From: Victivallis lenta
GTDB taxonomy: Bacteria; Verrucomicrobiota; Lentisphaeria; Victivallales; Victivallaceae
Reading direction: 5' to 3'
DNA length: 64,000 bases
Assembly (NCBI RefSeq): GCF_009695545.1
Contig: NZ_VUNS01000009.1
Location: 62,001-126,000, forward strand
Of this stretch, positions 40,840-56,181 are shown piece after piece. A program made the translations under genes and the position numbers. How positions within the stretch are numbered: position 1 is the first letter of the stretch; each line of letters starts with the position of its first letter. Below the pieces are notes generated by a model that had not been told where the DNA came from, searched no databases, and saw nothing but the letters and a program-made list of their open reading frames with translations.

Positions 40840-40957
40840 CCCGGACCAAAAGACCGGGACCATCGTGTTTCGCCGGCCGGAGAAGGACGGCGGGACACAA
40901 TCGTCCCTTTTTCACCCGCCGACAACCATATTGACATCAAACCTGAACCGGAATAAA

Positions 40958-43900
40958 ATGCTTGACTCTATTCTCTCCCGTCTGCCGGCCCCCGGCAAAG
41001 AATTTCGCGGCGCTCCCTTCTGGGCGTGGAACGGCAAACTCGAACCGCAGGAGCTGCGGCGGCAAATCAACGATTTCCGGGGAATGGGCTTCGGCGGATT
41101 TTTCATGCATTCGCGCGTCGGCCTCAACACGGAGTATCTCGGGCGGGAGTGGTTCGAGTGCGTCCGGGCCTGCATCGACGAAGCGAAAAAATGCGGCATG
41201 GACGCCTGGCTCTACGACGAGGACCGCTGGCCTTCCGGCGCGGCGGGCGGGCTCGTCACCCGCAATCCGGAATACCGCAGCCGTTTCATCCAGTGCATTT
41301 CCGGGGACGAAGCCCGGGCGGAGGACGGGTGCCGGACGCTCGGCTGTTTCGCCGCGGCCGACCTGAACGCGCGCCGCTGCTCCTCCTTCCGCCGCCTGGA
41401 AAGCGCCGGTGAACCGCTGGCCGAAAATGAAACGCTGCTGCGCTTCCGGCTGTCCGTCGCCCCCGACAGCTCCTGGTTCAACGGCGAAGCCTATCTGGAT
41501 GTGCTGAATGAAAAAGCTGTGGAGGAATTCATCCGCGTCACCCATGAGAGATACCGGGCTGAACTGGGTTCGGAATTCGGCGGCACGGTCCCGGGAATCT
41601 TCTCCGACGAACCGAATTTCCGGACCGGGTTCCTGCCGGGCAGCATGAGCATGCCGTGGACGGAATCCCTGCCGCAGACCTTTGCAGAATTGAGCGGCGG
41701 CATGAAGCTGTCCGACCGGCTGCCGGAGCTGTTTTTCAAGGTGGGTGACGAAGATTTTTCGCCGGTGCGCATGCACTACTACAACACCCTGACGCATCTC
41801 TTCGTCAATGCCTTCAGCCGCCGGATCGGCGCGTGGTGCGAAAAAAACAACCTGCTTTTCACCGGCCACGTCCTTCTCGAAGACAACGTCGTCAGCCAGA
41901 GCAGTTTCGTCGGCAGCGCCATGCGTTTCTATGAATATATGCAGAGTCCCGGAATCGATCTCCTGACCGAGCATTGGAATATTTTCCTGGCGGCCAAGCA
42001 GTGCGTTTCGGCCGCCCGCCAGTTCGGGCGGTCTCTCCGGCTCAGCGAAACCTACGGCTGCACCGGCTGGGATTTTCCCTTCGCCGGGCACAAGGCGCTG
42101 GGCGACTGGCAGACCGCGCTGGGAATCAACTTCTTCTGCCCCCACCTGGCCTGGTACACGATGGAGGGGGAAGGCAAGCGGGATTATCCGGCCGGCATCT
42201 CCAGCCAGTCGCCGTGGTTCGAATCCTATCACCGGATCACGGATTATTTCGCCCGGATCAACCTGGCCCTCTCCGGCGGCGCCGAGGTGCGCGATCTGCT
42301 GGTCGTGCATCCGATCGAATCGACCTGGGGCGTCTTCTACGAAGGGCGCGACAGTGCGGAGCCGGAGTGGAACACAGCGGAAGAAAACCGGCTGGTCCAT
42401 CTGACCAACTTCCTGCTCGGGCAGCATCTGGATTTCGATTTCGGCGACGAAGAGATCATGGCCCGGCACGGCGCGGCGGAAGAGGCCGGACTCCGCATCG
42501 GCCAGGCAGTTTATCAGGCCGTGCTGCTGCCGGAAATGCGCACCATCCGCAGGAGCACGCTCGAACTGCTGACTGCGTTCCGCCGCAACGGCGGAACGGT
42601 CTGTTTCCTCGGCGCGCCGCCGGAACGGACCGACGGCGCAATTTCCGGGGCGGCTGCGGAGGCTTACCGGAATTTCCGGAAGGCGGCGGAGCACGAACTC
42701 GCGGCGGCACTCGGCCCGGCGGTGCGTCATCTCTCCATTGCCGCCGCCGGAACGGAGGCGGAAAGCATTCTCTGCCAGTTGCGCCGCCATGACGATTGCG
42801 AAGTTCTCTTCTGCTGCAACACCGGGGTGGAAATGCGCGACCGTCAGATGGAGATGCCGCTGGTGCGCGACCGCAATCTGGAATATCCCGCAGTCCGGAT
42901 CGCCTGGAAGCTGCCGGCCGCTTACCGGATCTATGAAATCGACCCATCATCCGGGGAGATTTTTCCGGTCGACGGCTTTTATGAAAACGGCTGCCGGGCG
43001 GCGGACACCTCCTTCGCCGCGCTGCAATCCCGGCTTTTCATTGCTGCGCAGGAGATTCCGGCCTGCCGTAAACGCCGGGACGCCGCGCCGGGCGCCCCGG
43101 TGGTGGAAATCCCGGCGGGCGTTCCGCTCCCCGTCCGGCGCAGCGAGCCGAACGTGCTGCTGCTGGCGGAGCCGGAATACCGGATCGACGGCGGCGGCTG
43201 GCAGGCGTCGGAACCGGTTCTGAAGCTGGACGACCGTCTCCGGGAACGGCTCGGAGCCCGGCCGCGCGGCGGCGAAATGATCCAGCCGTGGCTCGCCCCC
43301 CGGCGGGAACCGGAACGCAAACTGGCGCTGGAGCTGAAATACGAGTTCGACTGCCGGGATATTCCGCCGGAAGAGTGCCGTCTGGCGCTGGAGAGGCCGG
43401 AACTGTACGAGGCCGAATTCAACGGAGTTCCCATCGCGCCGCTGCCGGATGCGTGGTGGGTGGACCGTTCCCTGCGGCTGCTGGCGCTCCCCCGTGCGCT
43501 TTTCGTACAGGGCCGGAACCGGATTACGCTCAGAACCGCCTACCATGCCGGAATGCCGGGGCTGGAATACTGTTATTTGCTCGGCGAATTCGCGGTCGGG
43601 GAGAACGCCGTTCTGACCGCTCCGCCGCAGACGCTGGTCCGCGGGGACTGGACGAAGCAGGGACTGCCGTACTATTCCGGCAACCTGACTTACCGGTTCG
43701 ACCTGCCCGACGGCACGGCGGATGGAACGGTTCTGGAGCTCGGCCCCTGGCGTGGAACCGCAGTGCTGGTATCCGTCAACGGCGGAAAGGCGGCGATGGC
43801 CGCCTGGCCGCCGTACCGCACGGTACTGACGGGGCTGACCGGCCGCGGCGACCGGGTGGAGGTCACCATCCTCGGTCACCGCCGCAACTCCCACGGCCCG

Positions 43901-46103: not shown

Positions 46104-46961
46104 TCAGGGCATGTCCGCCTGCCGCCTCAGCCAGCCGGCGGCAAGCAAAGGCCAATCCGCTACCGGCCTGCCGCTGCGGAGAATGCCGTAACCATGCCCG
46201 CCTTCGGCAAAAATATGAAGCTCCGCCTGAACCGATGCCCGTTTCAGGGCGCGGAACCAGCCGAGCGAATTCTCTACGCGGACCTGGTCATCCTCCGCCT
46301 GAACCATGAAAGCCGGAGGAGTTCCGGAGTCGATACGGAATTCCGGCGCCGGCGCAAGAGCGTCGTCGCAGAGATAGGCCGGATAAATCAACGCGGTGAA
46401 ATCCGGCCGGAACGGCAGCCGGTCCGCATCGTCAACCGGCGCATACGGCACCGGCTCCGCGGGGGCGGCAATCGACGCCGTCAGGTGCGCTCCCGCCGAG
46501 AAGCCGAGACAACCCGTCCGATCCGGCTGGATATGAAACGATTCCGCATGGAAGCGGATGAAACGCATCGCTCTCGCGGCGTCGGCGTGCGCGGCCTCCC
46601 GGCGATCCGGGCAGCGGTATTTCAGCAGAAAAGCGGAAAAACCGATCGAATTAAGCCAGCCGCAGATATCGCGGCCTTCATGGTTCCAGGCCAGAATCTC
46701 ATAGCCGCCGCCCGGACAGACCAGCACCGCCGGGTGCGGTCCCCGGCCGCTGGCCGGGAAGAAGGTCAGCGTCGGCCGGACGACGTCCGTCAGCCGGTCG
46801 ATCCCGTCCTCCGACGCCAGAAAACGTTCCGTGACAACACAATCCCCGTCCCGGGCGAAAGGAGCGGGCAACTCCCACAATAAATACTCCGGATTGCCGG
46901 CTCCCGCGCCGGTCACGCCGGAAGAGAAGCGCAACTCCTCCGGGACACCTTTGATACTCAT
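46104..46961 (-). CDS. Alpha/beta-hydrolase esterase (BD-FAE/acetyl-xylan-esterase-like)
   Basis: A 285-residue alpha/beta hydrolase. The oxyanion-hole motif HPAVLVCPGGGYEIL lies at about 76-90, the nucleophile elbow GFSAG has S155, AEDD near residue 236 supplies the acid and GGHGYG near 263 the histidine. The HEGRDICGWLNSIGFSAFLLKYR segment is typical of bifunctional feruloyl/acetyl esterases. No signal peptide. Start ATG at 46961 has GGAGGA seven bases upstream. Within the cluster it would remove ester groups from imported oligosaccharides so that the neighbouring glycosidases can act. Confidence 0.87.
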   Translation of the reverse strand: MSIKGVPEELRFSSGVTGAGAGNPEYLLWELPAPFARDGDCVVTERFLASEDGIDRLTDVVRPTLTFFPASGRGPHPAVLVCPGGGYEILAWNHEGRDICGWLNSIGFSAFLLKYRCPDRREAAHADAARAMRFIRFHAESFHIQPDRTGCLGFSAGAHLTASIAAPAEPVPYAPVDDADRLPFRPDFTALIYPAYLCDDALAPAPEFRIDSGTPPAFMVQAEDDQVRVENSLGWFRALKRASVQAELHIFAEGGHGYGILRSGRPVADWPLLAAGWLRRQADMP

Positions 46962-47009: not shown

Positions 47010-48773
47010 TCAGAACCGAAGTTCCAGAAGTCCGGACTTCGAGAACGGTATCCGGGAAAGCCCGGCGGCGAGCGGCGCTCCGGAAATCCTCCGGCCGGTC
47101 GCGTCAAACCGGACGGCCTCCCGGGCCGGCAGCGGCAGGTCCAGCAGCAGCTGATCCGCACCGCTGCCGTTGACGATCCAGCAGCACGTTCCCGGCCTGC
47201 CGGGGACCCGTACCTCCGTCCCGGCGCCGTAAACGGCAATCACCGTTTCCGCGTCCGTCTCCGCAACCACCAGCGGATAATTGAGTTCCGGGTGGTACGG
47301 AGTCAGTTTCCCGAACAGCAGGACCTCCCAGTGGACGCGCATGAAACCAAGCCAGAACTTCAGCATGTTCCGATGCTCCTCCGGAATGGCGGCCAGCCGG
47401 ACGGAGATCTGCGGCACGCTGAAAATGACATTCAGCAGCTGCAGCGCGGCGTTTTCCGCCGTATCCCGCGCACTCCACTCCAGCATGTCGGAGTGAACCG
47501 CGGTATTGCCGGAGCTCAGCCGCAGATCGATCGTGCTCAGGCGATTGGACAGAATATCGCCGGGGCAGTCTCCGGCCCGGAACAGATTACCGTATTTGCG
47601 CACCGCCGGACCGATATAGCTCTGGCGGAACTCGATCAGGATTCCCGGCCTGATCCGTTCCAGGCGCGAACGGGTTTCCGAAAGCAGGCGGTTGACCGCC
47701 TCCGGCAGCGATTTGAAGTCCCGCCCGGCGTAATTTTCCCGGATGGCGGGGTCCTCCCCCTCGAAGCGGAAGCTGTCGATGAAATCGAGCTTGAAGCCGT
47801 CGATATCCCACTCCCGCAAGGTCTTCACATACGTGGAGATCAGAAACTCCCTCACCTCCGGAAAGCGCGGGTCGAGCACCGCCGTCTCCAAAGCCGGAAT
47901 CCGGTAAAGCACTTTATCCCGGAAACGCTCCCGGTTCCGGCTCCTGTCGCCCACGAACGGAACGGAGAACCAGACCAGATATTTCATCCCGAGCCGGTGA
48001 ATCCGTTCCACATGCGCCCGCATGTCGGGGAAGCGCCTCTTCGAAATCTCCCAGTCGCCGCAATACGCATACCCGCGCCGGTTGTCATCGGTCTGCCAGC
48101 CGTCGTCGACGATCAGCCCTTTCATGCCGTACTGCGCGGCAAGCGCGCATTCACGCTCCAGCTCCGGCGCGAAGAGCTCCTGGTGGTAGCTGTACCAGGA
48201 GGAGTAGAACGGCTCGTAAGCGGCCGGCGGAACGGCGGCGGCCACATATTCCGGAAAGGCGGCAAACCAGGCGAAGGCGTCGCGGATCGCGTCGGCATAG
48301 AAGAGCGGCCGGAAATCGAGCCGCAGCTCCGCATGATACGACGAAATCGGCGCTTCCGGACGGGAAAAGAGTTCGACCGAGCAAATGACTTCACAGCTTT
48401 CCTCGTGCACTCCGGCTTTGAACCGCACGGGACGCATGGCCTCGGAAACGGCGAACAGCAGACGGTTTTCCCCGGACTGGCTGCCGAGCAGCAGCACCGG
48501 CGCGGAGGTCGCCAGGTCGGAATTCAGCGGCGCACACCAGTCGGCCGGAATTTTTCGGACGAAAGCCCCGTTCGGCTGCCAGAGGAAGTGCATGTCCACG
48601 AGCGGCATGCGCCATTCGACAGTCAGCCGGGGCGGCGTCTCCGGCTCCGGACACTCCAGGTCAAGCCGGATCAGTTCCAGCCCGGGTTCAACAGTCTCCC
48701 GGGCGGCAGCCGGCCGCCAGCGGCCGAGCTCCCCGGTCAGCTCGATCTCTCCAATCAAACACGCGATTTTCAT
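47010..48773 (-). CDS. GH36-like glycoside hydrolase (alpha-galactosidase family)
   Basis: A 587-residue clan GH-D enzyme. The TIM barrel (about 185-500) shows VDDGWQTDD near 222, nucleophile D330 in DGFKLDFID and acid/base D402 in RAGDCPGD. An N-terminal beta-sandwich (1-170) and a C-terminal beta domain flank it, as in GH36. No signal peptide. It follows the SGNH hydrolase gene by 8 bases with GAGG before the ATG at 48773. Probably hydrolyses alpha-galactosides, or a related alpha-linked sugar, in the cytoplasm; specificity is not certain. Confidence 0.88.
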   Translation of the reverse strand: MKIACLIGEIELTGELGRWRPAAARETVEPGLELIRLDLECPEPETPPRLTVEWRMPLVDMHFLWQPNGAFVRKIPADWCAPLNSDLATSAPVLLLGSQSGENRLLFAVSEAMRPVRFKAGVHEESCEVICSVELFSRPEAPISSYHAELRLDFRPLFYADAIRDAFAWFAAFPEYVAAAVPPAAYEPFYSSWYSYHQELFAPELERECALAAQYGMKGLIVDDGWQTDDNRRGYAYCGDWEISKRRFPDMRAHVERIHRLGMKYLVWFSVPFVGDRSRNRERFRDKVLYRIPALETAVLDPRFPEVREFLISTYVKTLREWDIDGFKLDFIDSFRFEGEDPAIRENYAGRDFKSLPEAVNRLLSETRSRLERIRPGILIEFRQSYIGPAVRKYGNLFRAGDCPGDILSNRLSTIDLRLSSGNTAVHSDMLEWSARDTAENAALQLLNVIFSVPQISVRLAAIPEEHRNMLKFWLGFMRVHWEVLLFGKLTPYHPELNYPLVVAETDAETVIAVYGAGTEVRVPGRPGTCCWIVNGSGADQLLLDLPLPAREAVRFDATGRRISGAPLAAGLSRIPFSKSGLLELRF

Positions 48774-48781
48774 TCAATCCT

Positions 48782-49477
48782 CTAATCCTGTGATGCAAAA
48801 TGAACGGCGGCCGGCGCATCTCCATCCAGCAGCCGCTTCAGAAAAGCCGGATAAGTTTCGCCCGTCGCACTCCCCTGCCCTTCCATATAGGCGCCGCAGG
48901 TGATGCTGTCCCCCAGACAGACCACCCGGCGCGGATGCCAGTCAAACTCCTGAAACCTCCGGTACAGCGCCCGGGCCATCATCCGGTATCCTTCGGCGGT
49001 CGGATGCACGCTGTCAACCGCTCCGCTGTTGGCCGGATTGCGCAGCGGGGAGTCGAAGCTGTCCAGGTCGAAACGCGAGAAAATCCGGTGAATATCGCAC
49101 ACAGAAAGCTGCAACTCCTTCTCCAGACGCTCGATGACCGCATTGCCGAGTGCAATGCGCTCCGTCGGCGTTTCCGTCCATTTCTCCGCAGGCTGGAGCT
49201 GGTACTCCCGCTCCTCCGCCACGGGCGGGATGGTCAGCACCATCACCCTGCCCGCCGCCGAGAGTGCGGAAATCAGATATCTCATGTTGCTCTCGTACTC
49301 CTCCGGAGAAACTCCGTGACCGGCATCCCCGAGCATATCGTTGGTTCCGGCCAGCAGGAGGAAAACCTCTCCTCCCAGAGACAGCGCCTCCGGCAATTCC
49401 CGGCGGATGATGTCGCCGGTCCTGGCTCCGCAGATGCCGAGGTTGAAAACTTCCGATTGACGAAACGGTGAATTCAT
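48782..49477 (-). CDS. SGNH-family hydrolase with circularly permuted block order
   Basis: A 231-residue protein whose SGNH blocks run in the order II-III-V-I. The N-terminus has FNLGICGARTGDI (block II glycine), then LLLAGTNDML (44-47, block III Asn), then DSVHPTAEGY (D155, H158, block V). Only after that comes RVVCLGDSITCG with the catalytic S191 (block I), which ends the protein after about 40 more residues. In ordinary SGNH enzymes GDSIT is N-terminal. All catalytic residues are present, so the fold could close normally. ATG at 49477 has GGAAAG upstream; the open frame to 49540 is ignored. Likely a carbohydrate esterase in the sugar cluster. Confidence 0.85.
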   Translation of the reverse strand: MNSPFRQSEVFNLGICGARTGDIIRRELPEALSLGGEVFLLLAGTNDMLGDAGHGVSPEEYESNMRYLISALSAAGRVMVLTIPPVAEEREYQLQPAEKWTETPTERIALGNAVIERLEKELQLSVCDIHRIFSRFDLDSFDSPLRNPANSGAVDSVHPTAEGYRMMARALYRRFQEFDWHPRRVVCLGDSITCGAYMEGQGSATGETYPAFLKRLLDGDAPAAVHFASQD

Positions 49478-49529: not shown

Positions 49530-51836
49530 CTATTCGGCATCCCGCCGTCCGCCCCTGTCGACGGATTCCAGCTCGGCTTTGTCGGCGAGAGACATGTGCC
49601 CCTCCACGACGCCGTTGTCGAGGTCGTTGACGGCGGTGCGGCTTTCGAGGTCCCGGAACAGCCGGAAAAGGTCCCGGACTCCCCCGATGCCGAACCAGAC
49701 GGTGGTTACCGCCGCCAGTACCAGCGGGATCGCCAGCTGAACCACGAAGAAGTAGTGTCCCCACCACTCCAGCGGCCACGGCGAGAACAAATTCCAGAGC
49801 AGCACCCCCAGAAATGCCAGGCAGAAGGAGTAGACGAAGCTGTAGCCGAACAATCCCCACGCGATGACCCGGTCGCCGCGGGTGTACTCCGGCGTTATGC
49901 CGATCACATTCGCGAAAAATTCGCGCGGCGACCAGTGGAGTTTGAACCGCTTCGTCCCGTCGATCGCATATTTTCCGCGGTGGAGCATGCGGTCGAGGTT
50001 GAACGGCTCCCGGCAGGTCGCATACGAAACCAGGCAATAGAGCACGAAGGTCACGATCATGGTGAGGAAATAAAATTCGTAGGAGTTGACCGGGCATTTG
50101 ACCGCATCCATCTTCCAGACGATCCAGGGGTGGAAGGGTCCGGAGAGCGTCTCGAGCGCATTCCCCACCGCGACCGCCAGCCCGTTGCCGTCCAGAAACG
50201 GATAGATCGTATCGGCCCAGTTCCGCTGGATCAGAACTCCGCCGACCGCCATGACCATTCCGGTGATCAGCGAGGTGAAAGCCCCCGCCGTGGTGCCGAA
50301 CCGGCTGTAAAGACCGAAAATCATCACGGGAGCGCAGCCGCCCAGCCAGATGGAGGTCATCAGCGTCACGAACAGGTTGATGTAGTCCAGCTGCGACATG
50401 AAGTACGAGCCGCAGAAGAAAAAGACGCCGACGCCGATCGACACCAGCCGGATCACCCGGATATGCGACTCCGGCCTGAGCGGTTTTCCGCACAGCGGAA
50501 CGATCACGTCCTGCGTAATCGTCAGCGAAGCGCTGTAAATGCGCGTGTCGTCGGTGGAGAGCATGGCCAGCACCAGCAGCAGCGCGAAAAGCCCGAGGAT
50601 CACCGGCGGCAGAAGCTCGCGCATGGCGACCGGCAGCATCAGCTGATAATAGAGGGTGCGGAACTCCTGGAAAACGGCATTGCCGTTCCCGGTCTCCTGC
50701 AAAGTCCGGTGGACCGTTTCAAGATATGCGGTATCCAGGTTGTTCCGGTCGGCAAGCGGAGCGTCGCGGCCGATCACATGCTTCTGCTCCGGAATATCGC
50801 GGAGGCCGGCGACCAGCTTCGAACGCATCCCGTCATCCGGGACAAGTCCGTCCGCGATGCGGGTCGAGAGCCGGGTGCGGATCTCCCGGGCCTCATGGGA
50901 GAAACTGCCGTGGTTGAGCACGACGATCACCGCCACCGCGACCAGCAGATAAAAGATCACCCCGAGCATATTGCGCCAGGTGCCGAGCAGGCCGGCCATC
51001 TTCTGTTCGTGCGGAGATTTCGCGGCAGAGGTGATTCCCGCCCCGATCCAGCTGGCCTGATGCACGATCATCGTGGTAAAGGTGACGACCAGCATGAACA
51101 CGTTGAAATCGCGCATCTCATCGACGTCGAAGGGGTTCAGAAAGCTTTCGCCGGCCACGCGGTCCATCATGACCGGCACGATTTCAGTGCTCCATGAAAA
51201 TCTGTACAGCACGAACACGATCATCACCACCAGCAGCGGATAGCAGAACATGCCCTGAATCGCATCGGTGATCACCAGCGTCAGGGTTCCCCCGCAGCAG
51301 ATCAGGGTGATCGCCATCACCAGCACCAGAACCACCAGAAGCATGAAGGTCGGCAGCTCGCAGCCGAAAAACCCGATGCGTTCAGGCAGATCGAAGAAGT
51401 AGATGAAAAAACGCGCCGCCACCGCGGGCATGATCATATTGGCCAGCATTTCCGAGAGCGACCGCAGCGTCGCGGCGAAAATGCGCAGCGGGCGGCTGTA
51501 GCGCATTTCGAGGAACTGGCCCAGCGACATCGCCCGGGTTTCGCGGAAGCGGTAAGTGCAGTATCCGGTCAGGGCGATCACGATGCTCAGCGGCATCGCA
51601 AAGCCGTTCCAGAAGCTCAGGGCAAAGCCGGTTTTGTACTGCGCTTCCACATAGGCGACCAGCCCGATGATGGCCAGCGCGTTGGCCACGTCGCCGACGC
51701 TGATCACATACCGCCCGCACAACCGCCCCGCGACCAGGAAATCGGCCACGCTTTTCACGTATTTGCGGGAATAAAATCCCATTCCCATCACAAAGAGCAC
51801 GGGAACTGTCACAATCAGCCAGTCAAGAAGAGTCAT
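49530..51836 (-). CDS. Sodium:solute symporter (SSS family)
   Basis: A 768-residue membrane protein with about 13-15 predicted helices. The N-terminus (LLDWLIVTVPVLFVMGMGFYSRKYVKSVADFLVAGR) and the helix FLEMRYSRPLRIFAATLRSLSEM are typical of SSS sugar and sialic-acid carriers. A long loop near 320-385 and a C-terminal hydrophilic tail (DNGVVEGHMSLADKAELES) make it longer than most members. It is the only transporter in the window and lies among glycosidase and esterase genes, so it probably imports the released sugar or small oligosaccharide with sodium. Start ATG at 51836 has AAGG upstream. Confidence 0.9.
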   Translation of the reverse strand: MTLLDWLIVTVPVLFVMGMGFYSRKYVKSVADFLVAGRLCGRYVISVGDVANALAIIGLVAYVEAQYKTGFALSFWNGFAMPLSIVIALTGYCTYRFRETRAMSLGQFLEMRYSRPLRIFAATLRSLSEMLANMIMPAVAARFFIYFFDLPERIGFFGCELPTFMLLVVLVLVMAITLICCGGTLTLVITDAIQGMFCYPLLVVMIVFVLYRFSWSTEIVPVMMDRVAGESFLNPFDVDEMRDFNVFMLVVTFTTMIVHQASWIGAGITSAAKSPHEQKMAGLLGTWRNMLGVIFYLLVAVAVIVVLNHGSFSHEAREIRTRLSTRIADGLVPDDGMRSKLVAGLRDIPEQKHVIGRDAPLADRNNLDTAYLETVHRTLQETGNGNAVFQEFRTLYYQLMLPVAMRELLPPVILGLFALLLVLAMLSTDDTRIYSASLTITQDVIVPLCGKPLRPESHIRVIRLVSIGVGVFFFCGSYFMSQLDYINLFVTLMTSIWLGGCAPVMIFGLYSRFGTTAGAFTSLITGMVMAVGGVLIQRNWADTIYPFLDGNGLAVAVGNALETLSGPFHPWIVWKMDAVKCPVNSYEFYFLTMIVTFVLYCLVSYATCREPFNLDRMLHRGKYAIDGTKRFKLHWSPREFFANVIGITPEYTRGDRVIAWGLFGYSFVYSFCLAFLGVLLWNLFSPWPLEWWGHYFFVVQLAIPLVLAAVTTVWFGIGGVRDLFRLFRDLESRTAVNDLDNGVVEGHMSLADKAELESVDRGGRRDAE

Positions 51837-52771: not shown

Positions 52772-54931
52772 TTACTTCTCCCCGGGAATGAAAGCCTTCA
52801 ATTTCTCTTTTTTGAATGCTTCCATTGCCTCGTCCAGAGCAGCAGCGTCCTTCGTGCCGCACATCGTCCGGATTTCGCCGCTGACGTCGATGCCCTTCTG
52901 CCGGAGGGCGGCGACCAATGCGTAATCATCGATTCCCAGCTCCCACAGCGCCCAGCGGCGGGACGGATAGCGCACGCCGTTTTCATCCAGATAGGTCATG
53001 CCGTAATTGACGACGCCCTCCGGCGGCGTGATCGAAGCGTGCCGGAACTGCAGGCCGGTCAGGCTCCAGAACGTGAAACCGTCCCACCCGCGCTGCACGG
53101 AATTCAGCGCCATGCGCCGGTAGTTGTTCAACGGATGCCGCGGCTGCGAATCGCACTCGTAGATCCAGAGCGGCTTCCCGGTGCTTCTCAGCAGCTCGAC
53201 GGCCTTGTTCCCGTTGTTCGCGTCTTCCTGCAGGAACCATGATCCCAGGCAGAAACAGTCCAGATAGGGAAGGAACGGACGCAGCTGTTCCGCAGTCGCC
53301 GGGGGCGGGTCGGAGAAGATGCGGATCTGCGGGTCCAGCCGCTTGATATTTTTCGCGCCGTTCAGGAATTTGTCGTTCAACACCTCGTCGAAGCAGTGAA
53401 CGATCCACTGGTCGTAGCGATAGCCGCGGGACTTCATATAGGCGGCAAGCTGCAGGTAGTAATTGTCCAGGTCCGCGTTCCACCTGTCGGCTGCCCCGGT
53501 GAACCAGTTTTCCAGGAAAAAGGTAACCTTGCCGCGGTCGCCGTTGGCATCGACCCGGTCCAGAACCTGCTTCAGGTTGCTCTTTTCCCAGTTGACGGCT
53601 TCCTTCGCGTCGTATCCGCCATCGATATGGAAGACATTGACGCGGGCGTTGCGGAGGAACTCATAATCCGCCTGATCCTTCGTCACGCCGTAGTCCCAGT
53701 TGAAAACCGCCACCGGCAGCTCCTTCGGGGATTCGATCGCCGCCACGGTCTGACGGACCGGCACCCGAAGCTCCGCCGCGGCGGCCGGGTCCAGCGGGGT
53801 GAAAACCAGAGTGCCCCGGTAGACGCCCGGCTTCCAGTCGCGGCTGCGGAGATCGATCCAGATTCCCCTGGTCTCGCCGTCCGCCACTTCAAACACGCCG
53901 TCGAACGGCAGAGGGGGCATCGCATCGAAGAATCCGCCGACCGGAATCATGCGCCGCAGCTGCGGAGCCGGGACGTCCTTCGCTTCCCAGCGGGGCCGGA
54001 AGTACTGGGTGCGTCCGGAATGGTTGCGGATAAGCAGGATTTTCGCCTCATAGCCGTTCACCGGCATCAGCACATCCACTTCCGGCTCCGTCTCCGGGGC
54101 TATCGGCGTATCGACGTCGAACTCGGCCGACGGGTTGACGAGCCGGGCTTCCAGTGCATACTGCCGGCAGGAGGCGATCACCGCGGCATCCGCCGGGGTG
54201 AGGCGGTCGTTCCTGAAATTGTCCTGCGCCGTCACCAGCTGCTTCAGCAGCTGTTTGTCAACCGGCAGTCCGAGGGCGGCGTCGCGTTTGTAACTGTCCG
54301 CCAGGGCGTCGAACCGTTTGCGCTGGGACTGCATCCTGCGCATTTCCACCGAATCAGTGCCAGGAGCTTTCAACTCCGGCAGCGGCGGCAGTTCATCGGC
54401 GCATTCGAGCGTCACTTCGTCGATCAGCATGCCGGCGCCGGTGGCTCCGTAGCCGATGCCGACGGCAAGGCTCGCCATGCTTCCCGGCGTATGTTCGCCC
54501 TCCACCACAAGCCGTTCCCAGCCATGTCCTCGGGTGGTCGCCACCCCCACCCGGCCCATAACTCCGTCGCAGTAGGAGTGGCCGTCGACCAGACCGGCTT
54601 CGGCCTTTCCGGCGAAGTCGCTCTTGCACCAGGCGGTAAGACGCATCTTCCTGCCGCGGAGCCGCTCCGCCGGGATATCGACCATCAGGAACATCCACTG
54701 CGCCTCGTCGGACGATTCCAGGTAAAGCGCCTGCCTGCCGAAAGCCGCCTCCTTCGACGGCACATGTATCCAGGGCCGGGGTTCCTGCCCCCGGTAAAAA
54801 ACCGTAATGGGCCATGCCGCGGGGTCCCCCTCAAAATCTTCGTGATAAACGATCTCCGCCGCTGCCTGAAGCGCCGCGCACACCAGCAGCGCCGCGCACA
54901 CCGGCAGCGTCAGTCTCCGATACTTACCCAT
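52772..54931 (-). CDS. Secreted GH123/DUF4091-like glycoside hydrolase
   Basis: A 719-residue protein with a signal peptide (LTLPVCAALLVCAALQAAA). The N-terminal beta-sandwich (about 25-185, YHEDFEGDPAAW) looks like a carbohydrate-binding module. A helical linker follows, then a beta domain and a TIM barrel from about 405. The barrel contains the acidic pair D515-E516 in HCFDEVLN, in the position of the GH123 catalytic Asp-Glu, and later LWIYECDSQ and GWDGFTFWSL. This architecture is usually annotated DUF4091. Family resemblance suggests hexosaminidase-type chemistry, but the substrate is unproven. GGAG lies nine bases before the ATG. Confidence 0.78.
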   Translation of the reverse strand: MGKYRRLTLPVCAALLVCAALQAAAEIVYHEDFEGDPAAWPITVFYRGQEPRPWIHVPSKEAAFGRQALYLESSDEAQWMFLMVDIPAERLRGRKMRLTAWCKSDFAGKAEAGLVDGHSYCDGVMGRVGVATTRGHGWERLVVEGEHTPGSMASLAVGIGYGATGAGMLIDEVTLECADELPPLPELKAPGTDSVEMRRMQSQRKRFDALADSYKRDAALGLPVDKQLLKQLVTAQDNFRNDRLTPADAAVIASCRQYALEARLVNPSAEFDVDTPIAPETEPEVDVLMPVNGYEAKILLIRNHSGRTQYFRPRWEAKDVPAPQLRRMIPVGGFFDAMPPLPFDGVFEVADGETRGIWIDLRSRDWKPGVYRGTLVFTPLDPAAAAELRVPVRQTVAAIESPKELPVAVFNWDYGVTKDQADYEFLRNARVNVFHIDGGYDAKEAVNWEKSNLKQVLDRVDANGDRGKVTFFLENWFTGAADRWNADLDNYYLQLAAYMKSRGYRYDQWIVHCFDEVLNDKFLNGAKNIKRLDPQIRIFSDPPPATAEQLRPFLPYLDCFCLGSWFLQEDANNGNKAVELLRSTGKPLWIYECDSQPRHPLNNYRRMALNSVQRGWDGFTFWSLTGLQFRHASITPPEGVVNYGMTYLDENGVRYPSRRWALWELGIDDYALVAALRQKGIDVSGEIRTMCGTKDAAALDEAMEAFKKEKLKAFIPGEK

Positions 54932-55185: not shown

Positions 55186-56181
55186 TCATTTCGGACACTC
55201 GATAACCGATTCCCGATGAACAAGCTGCGGAGAAATCATGACGGAACGCAGCGGAGCGTCGGGCTCGTCGATCCTGGCCAGCAGCAGTTTTACCAACTGC
55301 TCCGTGATCTCCGAAAAATCCAGATCGAAGGAGTCCAGTGCGGGAGACAGGAATGCAGTCATGAACGAACTGTCAAGCGCGATCACCGATAGATCGTCCG
55401 GCACCCGGATTCCGAGCTTCGCGGCGCTGGAAAGCGCCGCAATCGCCTCCGTATCGCTATGACAGATCAGCGCATCCGGAATGGCGCCGCCGCACTCCCG
55501 GTAAAATTTGCCGAACGCATCCAGCGGGCGGCGGCTCCAGAAAGTCAGTTCGAAAATCCACTCGGGTTTCGATTCCAGCCCGCAGCGGCCCACATGCTCC
55601 CGGAAAAACCGGTTGCGTTCCCCCACGCTCAATATGCCGATCCGGCGATGGCCGAACTTTTTCAGGTGCTCCAGCGCCCGGATGATCATCTGTTCTTCAT
55701 CCAGAACGACATAATCATAGAATTCGTTCCGGTATCCGTACACCACCGCCGGAATTTTCTCCTCCCGGAAACAGGGCGAGGCATCCCAGCTGATCACCCC
55801 GCTGATGCTGCGTTCAAAAAAAGTCTGAAGCGTCTGCGCGTGCAGCTCCGGCGAATCATCGCCGCCCCAGAAGGAGAACAGGCTCGTAAAACCGCGCTTT
55901 TTGATTTCACGCTGCAATTCGAGCGCCATATTGCCGTAGATTCCGGTACCGGACATCGGCATCGCCACGCCGATGGTCGAGGACTTCCGCGCCCGCAGCT
56001 CCCGTGCCGCCGTATTCGGCCGGTAGTTCAGCGCCTTGACCGCTTCGGCCACCTTGCGGCGGTTCTCCGGCGTGCTGTTGCGATAACCGGAATTGCTGAT
56101 GATGAAAGCGACCAGGCTTCGTGAAAGTCCACAGTAGTCCGCCACATCTTTGAGCGTAACCCGTTTTTGTCGTTCCGGCAT
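55186..56181 (-). CDS. LacI-family transcriptional regulator (probably autoregulated)
   Basis: A 331-residue LacI protein. The N-terminal helix-turn-helix (VTLKDVADYCGLSRSLVAFIISNSGYRN) has SRSLVAFI as recognition helix and a STPENRRKVAEAVKALNYRPNTAAREL hinge. The effector domain starts SSTIGVAMPMSGTGIY. AAGGA precedes the ATG at 56181. Its promoter and a palindromic operator lie just upstream. It is the first gene of the minus-strand sugar cluster and probably represses it until the matching sugar appears. Ligand unknown. Confidence 0.92.
   Translation of the reverse strand: MPERQKRVTLKDVADYCGLSRSLVAFIISNSGYRNSTPENRRKVAEAVKALNYRPNTAARELRARKSSTIGVAMPMSGTGIYGNMALELQREIKKRGFTSLFSFWGGDDSPELHAQTLQTFFERSISGVISWDASPCFREEKIPAVVYGYRNEFYDYVVLDEEQMIIRALEHLKKFGHRRIGILSVGERNRFFREHVGRCGLESKPEWIFELTFWSRRPLDAFGKFYRECGGAIPDALICHSDTEAIAALSSAAKLGIRVPDDLSVIALDSSFMTAFLSPALDSFDLDFSEITEQLVKLLLARIDEPDAPLRSVMISPQLVHRESVIECPK

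Follow-up and report, generated by a model that had tools for sequence, protein, structure and literature searches.

A circularly permuted SGNH hydrolase of Victivallis lenta representing a widespread family of probable carbohydrate esterases

The window, that is, the whole stretch of 64,000 nucleotides of Victivallis lenta DNA that was analysed, carries a gene for an SGNH hydrolase with a non-canonical order of catalytic blocks. The gene, its blocks and its neighbours are listed in Table 1. Its extent and strand agreed with an initial annotation made from the sequence alone. The ribosome site claimed there was found as AGGAAAG, located 7 nt 5' of the ATG, and the gene lies between the glycoside hydrolase and symporter genes, at distances of 8 nt and 52 nt, respectively. 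A GtaA-family protein was also encoded downstream in the operon. In addition, the minus strand around the operon carries two long genes without a Pfam match, at 52772-54931 (719 aa) and 40937-42790 (617 aa).

Table 1. Coordinates of the permuted SGNH hydrolase gene, its catalytic blocks and the neighbouring genes in the window
Feature	Position	Strand	Remark
Permuted SGNH hydrolase gene, 230 aa	48782..49477	-	ATG at 49477, stop 48782-48784
Block II strand and turn, EVFNLGICG, residues 9-17	49427..49453	-	New N-terminus just ahead
Block III, GTND, residues 44-47	49337..49348	-	
Block V, DSVH, residues 155-158	49004..49015	-	
Block I, GDSIT, residues 189-193	48899..48913	-	S191, presumed nucleophile
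Block I helix, YPAFLKRLL, residues 209-217	48827..48853	-	Final structured element of the chain
Sodium/solute symporter (PF00474, SSF)	49530..51836	-	Upstream neighbour, 52 nt from the SGNH gene
Alpha-galactosidase-like glycoside hydrolase (Melibiase; GH36-like)	47010..48773	-	Downstream neighbour, 8 nt gap
Alpha/beta hydrolase (BD-FAE, PaeX/AxeA1 acetylesterase-like)	46104..46961	-	Second candidate esterase in the operon
LacI-family regulator	55186..56181	-	Upstream of the cluster

Canonical SGNH hydrolases carry the GDS motif near the N-terminus and the DxxH motif near the C-terminus. Every catalytic block of the superfamily was present in the window protein. Block II had its core NLGICG at residues 12-17 (N12, L, G14 and G17), following a predicted strand (E9-12 in the AlphaFold2 model). 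The two oxyanion-hole residues, the block II Gly (G17) and the Asn of GxND (N46), were both found, as were the Asp and His of the block V DxxH motif (D155 and H158) and the GDS(I/L) signature of block I with its serine (G189-D-S191-I-T). The canonical SGNH/GDSL enzymes (PF13472/PF00657), such as AlAXEase (7ddy) and the E. faecalis acylhydrolase (1yzf), share these blocks and the predicted fold. However, their linear order is I-II-III-V, whereas that of the window protein was II-III-V-I (G-N-H-S), with the chain ending 39 residues past S191.

The native window protein matched PF13472 in two stretches with an E-value of 2.5e-20, one of several results that speak against a chance pattern of motifs. 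The main stretch covered profile positions 35-177 of 178, and the C-terminal 45 aa alone matched the start of the same profile (from position 1 to 35-39; E=0.0016). With the last ~50 residues put first, the rotated protein gave a single-stretch match both to PF13472 (1-177/178) and to PF00657 (1-208/208). We then compared two profiles derived from one alignment of 46 permuted proteins, one in the native and one in the rotated order. Intact permuted members scored better by 25-72 bits with the native profile than with the rotated one, while the rotated profile was about equal or better for canonical SGNH proteins. For AlAXEase 7ddy, the rotated profile gave 1e-24 over 2-212 and the native profile 5.4e-17, mainly over the II-V part; the corresponding values for 1yzf were 9.2e-23 over 1-215 and 5.3e-15, again mainly over the II-V part. 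In the search with the rotated profile, no close unpermuted relative was found: permuted members matched mostly from position ~41, and canonical proteins gave end-to-end but weak matches of 105 bits or less. No named subfamily with the G-N-H-S order was found in Pfam or NCBIfam. The standard domain models catch permuted members from block II only and do not flag the order, which constitutes a blind spot of annotation.

The initial annotation had proposed structure prediction as a check. AlphaFold2, run on the 46-member alignment, returned a complete fold of the window protein with a mean pLDDT of 94.0 and a pTM of 0.91. The block I segment, consisting of the strand E184-189, the nucleophile helix H191-194 and the helix H209-217, was predicted with a pLDDT of 95-98, and a Chitinophaga homolog gave the same elements (pLDDT 97.4, pTM 0.93). 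The pTM of the window protein indicated that the last fifth of the chain is not expected to float free. A fold search against the PDB (Foldseek, VIA) returned SGNH hydrolases as top matches, in agreement with a flavodoxin-like alpha/beta/alpha SGNH fold, and the sequential structural matches were all SGNH hydrolases or designs built on an SGNH scaffold. The best superposition was with 1yzf (Z 16.2, 155 residues), in which residues 3-181 of the model aligned with residues 35-190 of the chain; the portion of 1yzf left unaligned was the N-terminal block I segment, as expected of a permutation. The matches listed by the fold search included no solved structure of the AlgX type, which is no argument against a similarity.

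In the preferred reading, the chain begins at the block II strand and finishes with the block I strand and helix. The former C-terminal helix would be joined by a short linker to the former N-terminal strand, and the break point would fall in the loop that leads from the block I helix to the block II strand. The GDSIT strand at the C-terminus is expected to take a central position in the sheet, which may place S191 beside D155 and H158 in a catalytic triad. G17 and N46 would form the oxyanion hole, and normal SGNH catalysis would presumably follow. A terminal block I segment on a linker (28-34 residues from His to Ser) is also a usual setting for domain swapping, in which this segment of one subunit would complete the active site of another and the enzyme would work only as a dimer. 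Such an arrangement was considered very unlikely, for AlphaFold2 folded the monomer completely and with high confidence, and the permuted domain also occurs within long multidomain chains, at either end; a monomer prediction is, however, compatible with an exchange of the C-terminal segment between subunits.

To evaluate the conservation of individual residues, we examined the 46 aligned members. G17, G44, N46, D47, D155, H158, C187, G189, S191, T193, P210 and L213 were invariant (46/46), G14 was found in 45/46 and Y209 in 44/46. The spacing between His158 and Ser191 was 32 residues in 35/46 members. In some members, the permuted domain is part of a large glycoside-hydrolase-like protein, a context in which a binding module would be plausible, and it might thus be an inactive SGNH-like domain, such as a sugar-binding module. 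This alternative appeared extremely unlikely, given that the Ser/Asp/His triad and the oxyanion residues were kept in all 46 sequences, which would be unexpected without catalysis; an active esterase was the preferred reading. The invariant C187 (codon 48917-48919) lies two residues ahead of GDS. In one family member (L122), GAS replaces GDS in block I (CFGASLT).

The Victivallis lenta genome encodes three paralogs with the identical block order (33-36% identity). The first has a hydrophobic, signal-like N-terminus immediately ahead of the block II strand, the second is a short, cytosolic-looking protein, and the third carries the permuted domain at the C-terminus of a 1806-residue protein. 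The initial annotation had also proposed a database search for the same block order, and this search found matches in at least four phyla: Verrucomicrobiota, Planctomycetota, Bacteroidota and Acidobacteriota. A scan of genome contigs revealed same-order homologs in Lentisphaeria, Verrucomicrobiales, Planctomycetes, Gimesia and many Bacteroidota, including the isolates Flavihumibacter cheonanensis, Chitinophaga varians, Parapedobacter indicus, Tamlana sedimentorum and Membranihabitans maritimus. In Victivallaceae, where all or nearly all candidates were scored, a full-length permuted match was found in 27/78 genomes. With part of the candidates per genome scored, permuted matches were found in at least 38/388 genomes of Verrucomicrobiota (full span, at least 150 bits), at least 9/294 of Planctomycetota, at least 4/395 of Bacteroidota and at least 2/149 of Acidobacteriota. 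Under the same scoring, and with no positive control inside either group, no match was obtained in Pseudomonadota (0/249) or Bacillota (0/199). Judged from sequence, the permuted SGNH protein is a widespread family rather than a single oddity.

Many standalone homologs carry a signal or lipoprotein peptide only a few residues ahead of the block II strand. These peptides abut block II, indicating that no block I is concealed upstream and that the mature protein consists of the permuted chain. GDS was absent from the 90 residues upstream of block II in the standalone members checked, and no member checked had a second II-III-V set downstream, as a tandem SGNH pair would. The C-terminus of standalone homologs lay 15-28 residues past GDSIT, compared with 36 in the window protein. 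An apparent upstream extension of one homolog (G015) was rejected, as it read through stop codons and was merely the signal-peptide region. Fusion partners of some homologs were a beta-helix domain or a DUF6259 domain. The permuted domain was observed as a C-terminal module of secreted-looking enzymes of 1500-1800 residues and as an N-terminal module ahead of DUF6259; the loci of multidomain fusions were L126:2627-8047 (in the same genome as the window), L128:2156-6691 and L127:130-3492.

The order II-III-V-I would also be produced by a truncated tandem pair, that is, by a damaged or misassembled gene in which an SGNH gene without block I runs into the start of a second one, and a few homologs do contain in-frame stops. 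However, the order and the end points were identical in 46 distinct sequences with invariant catalytic residues, the homologs span at least four phyla, with the later searches counted, and include isolates, secretion signals stand directly ahead of block II, and the predicted fold was complete and confident. An assembly error, which the initial annotation had named as a possible refutation, was ruled out by the homologs in independent assemblies. Consequently, a damaged or misassembled gene was assigned almost no probability. The block order read in the initial annotation was confirmed by the split Pfam match that rotation unified and by its retention in the 46 homologs. Its interpretation as a true circular permutation was supported by the paralogs, the homologs in isolates, the rotation match, the profile comparison and the confident fold. 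Apparently broken copies were seen in a genome of the same genus (L007), where an in-frame stop follows block V and precedes block I, and in Sphingobacterium humi (L040), with a split reading frame.

Circularly permuted SGNH enzymes have already been established, namely AlgX/AlgJ, WssI and PatB1 (PMC9487903, PMC4148444, PMC10302187; also PMC5697884). In all of them, the chain is opened between blocks III and V and the motifs are altered. AlgX, AlgJ and WssI have the order H-S-G-N (V-I-II-III), or H-S-G-Y/D by residue; AlgX/AlgJ carry GTSYS as block I, DxH as block V and Tyr in place of the block III Asn, which is Asp in WssI (PMC9487903, PMC4148444, PMC10302187). PatB1, of the DHHW family, has a circularly permuted SGNH core in HSGN order with KDS and TDHHW motifs (PMC9487903). 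The present family resembles AlgX/AlgJ/WssI in its permuted SGNH-like fold and in the Asp/His that precede the Ser in the chain. In contrast to AlgX/AlgJ, its order is G-N-H-S, its cut lies between blocks I and II, and it has GDSIT, DxxH and GxND; the permuted core is shared with PatB1, but KDS and TDHHW are absent. The window protein had no match to Pfam ALGX up to an E-value of 0.1, and one paralog reached E=0.015 (15.4 bits), under the cut-off of 26.5. The initial annotation had stated that no described family with this order was known. A literature search, with subscription papers and preprints outside its scope, found no description of the G-N-H-S order, which is no proof that none exists; SGNH permutation itself is known, in the H-S-G-N order, which was the only permuted order in the literature searched. 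On the motifs and their order, the family is a second type of SGNH permutation, in which the canonical motifs are retained and the chain opens between block I and block II.

To examine the origin of the permutation, a tree was built by a quick method from 58 rotated permuted sequences and 34 canonical sequences, the latter being weak matches to the permuted profile. The permuted sequences all fell on one side of a branch, which corresponds to one order change, whereas shuffled labels required 27.6 changes on average; the support of the branch separating permuted from canonical sequences was only 52. A single origin would be the simplest, albeit weakly supported, reading. A possible route is that an SGNH gene was duplicated in tandem and that block I of the first copy and II-III-V of the second were then lost; a duplication intermediate was not found. 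Collectively, the window protein is very likely (probability of roughly 0.9) an ordinary serine esterase of SGNH fold that has been circularly permuted, belonging to an old and widespread family that probably arose by one permutation and probably deacylates sugars. It also seems likely that a second, independent SGNH permutation (G-N-H-S) gave rise to a widespread carbohydrate esterase family that lacks an annotation and occurs across four phyla both as standalone proteins and as modules.

Natural permutations that shift the catalytic nucleophile to the opposite end of the chain are uncommon, and the family offers a natural test of how far the fold tolerates rewiring. It also adds candidate carbohydrate esterases of glycan-degrading bacteria. 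Our best guess for the function is a carbohydrate O-acyl esterase, most likely an O-acetyl esterase, acting in a sugar-utilisation operon. O-acetyl or similar acyl groups would be removed from sugars that enter through the neighbouring symporter and are cleaved by the GH36-like enzyme encoded next to it in the operon. A signal peptide was not evident in the window protein, which is in line with a putative intracellular deacylation of imported oligosaccharides. The neighbours of the homologs included FAD-dependent oxidoreductases (PF12831), a sulfatase, a GH95 enzyme and a 3-keto-disaccharide hydrolase. A gene for a PF12831 oxidoreductase adjoined the permuted SGNH gene at four loci of Bacteroidota and one of Lentisphaeria (L043, L044, L046, L048 and L052), and this recurrent pairing suggests a shared pathway.
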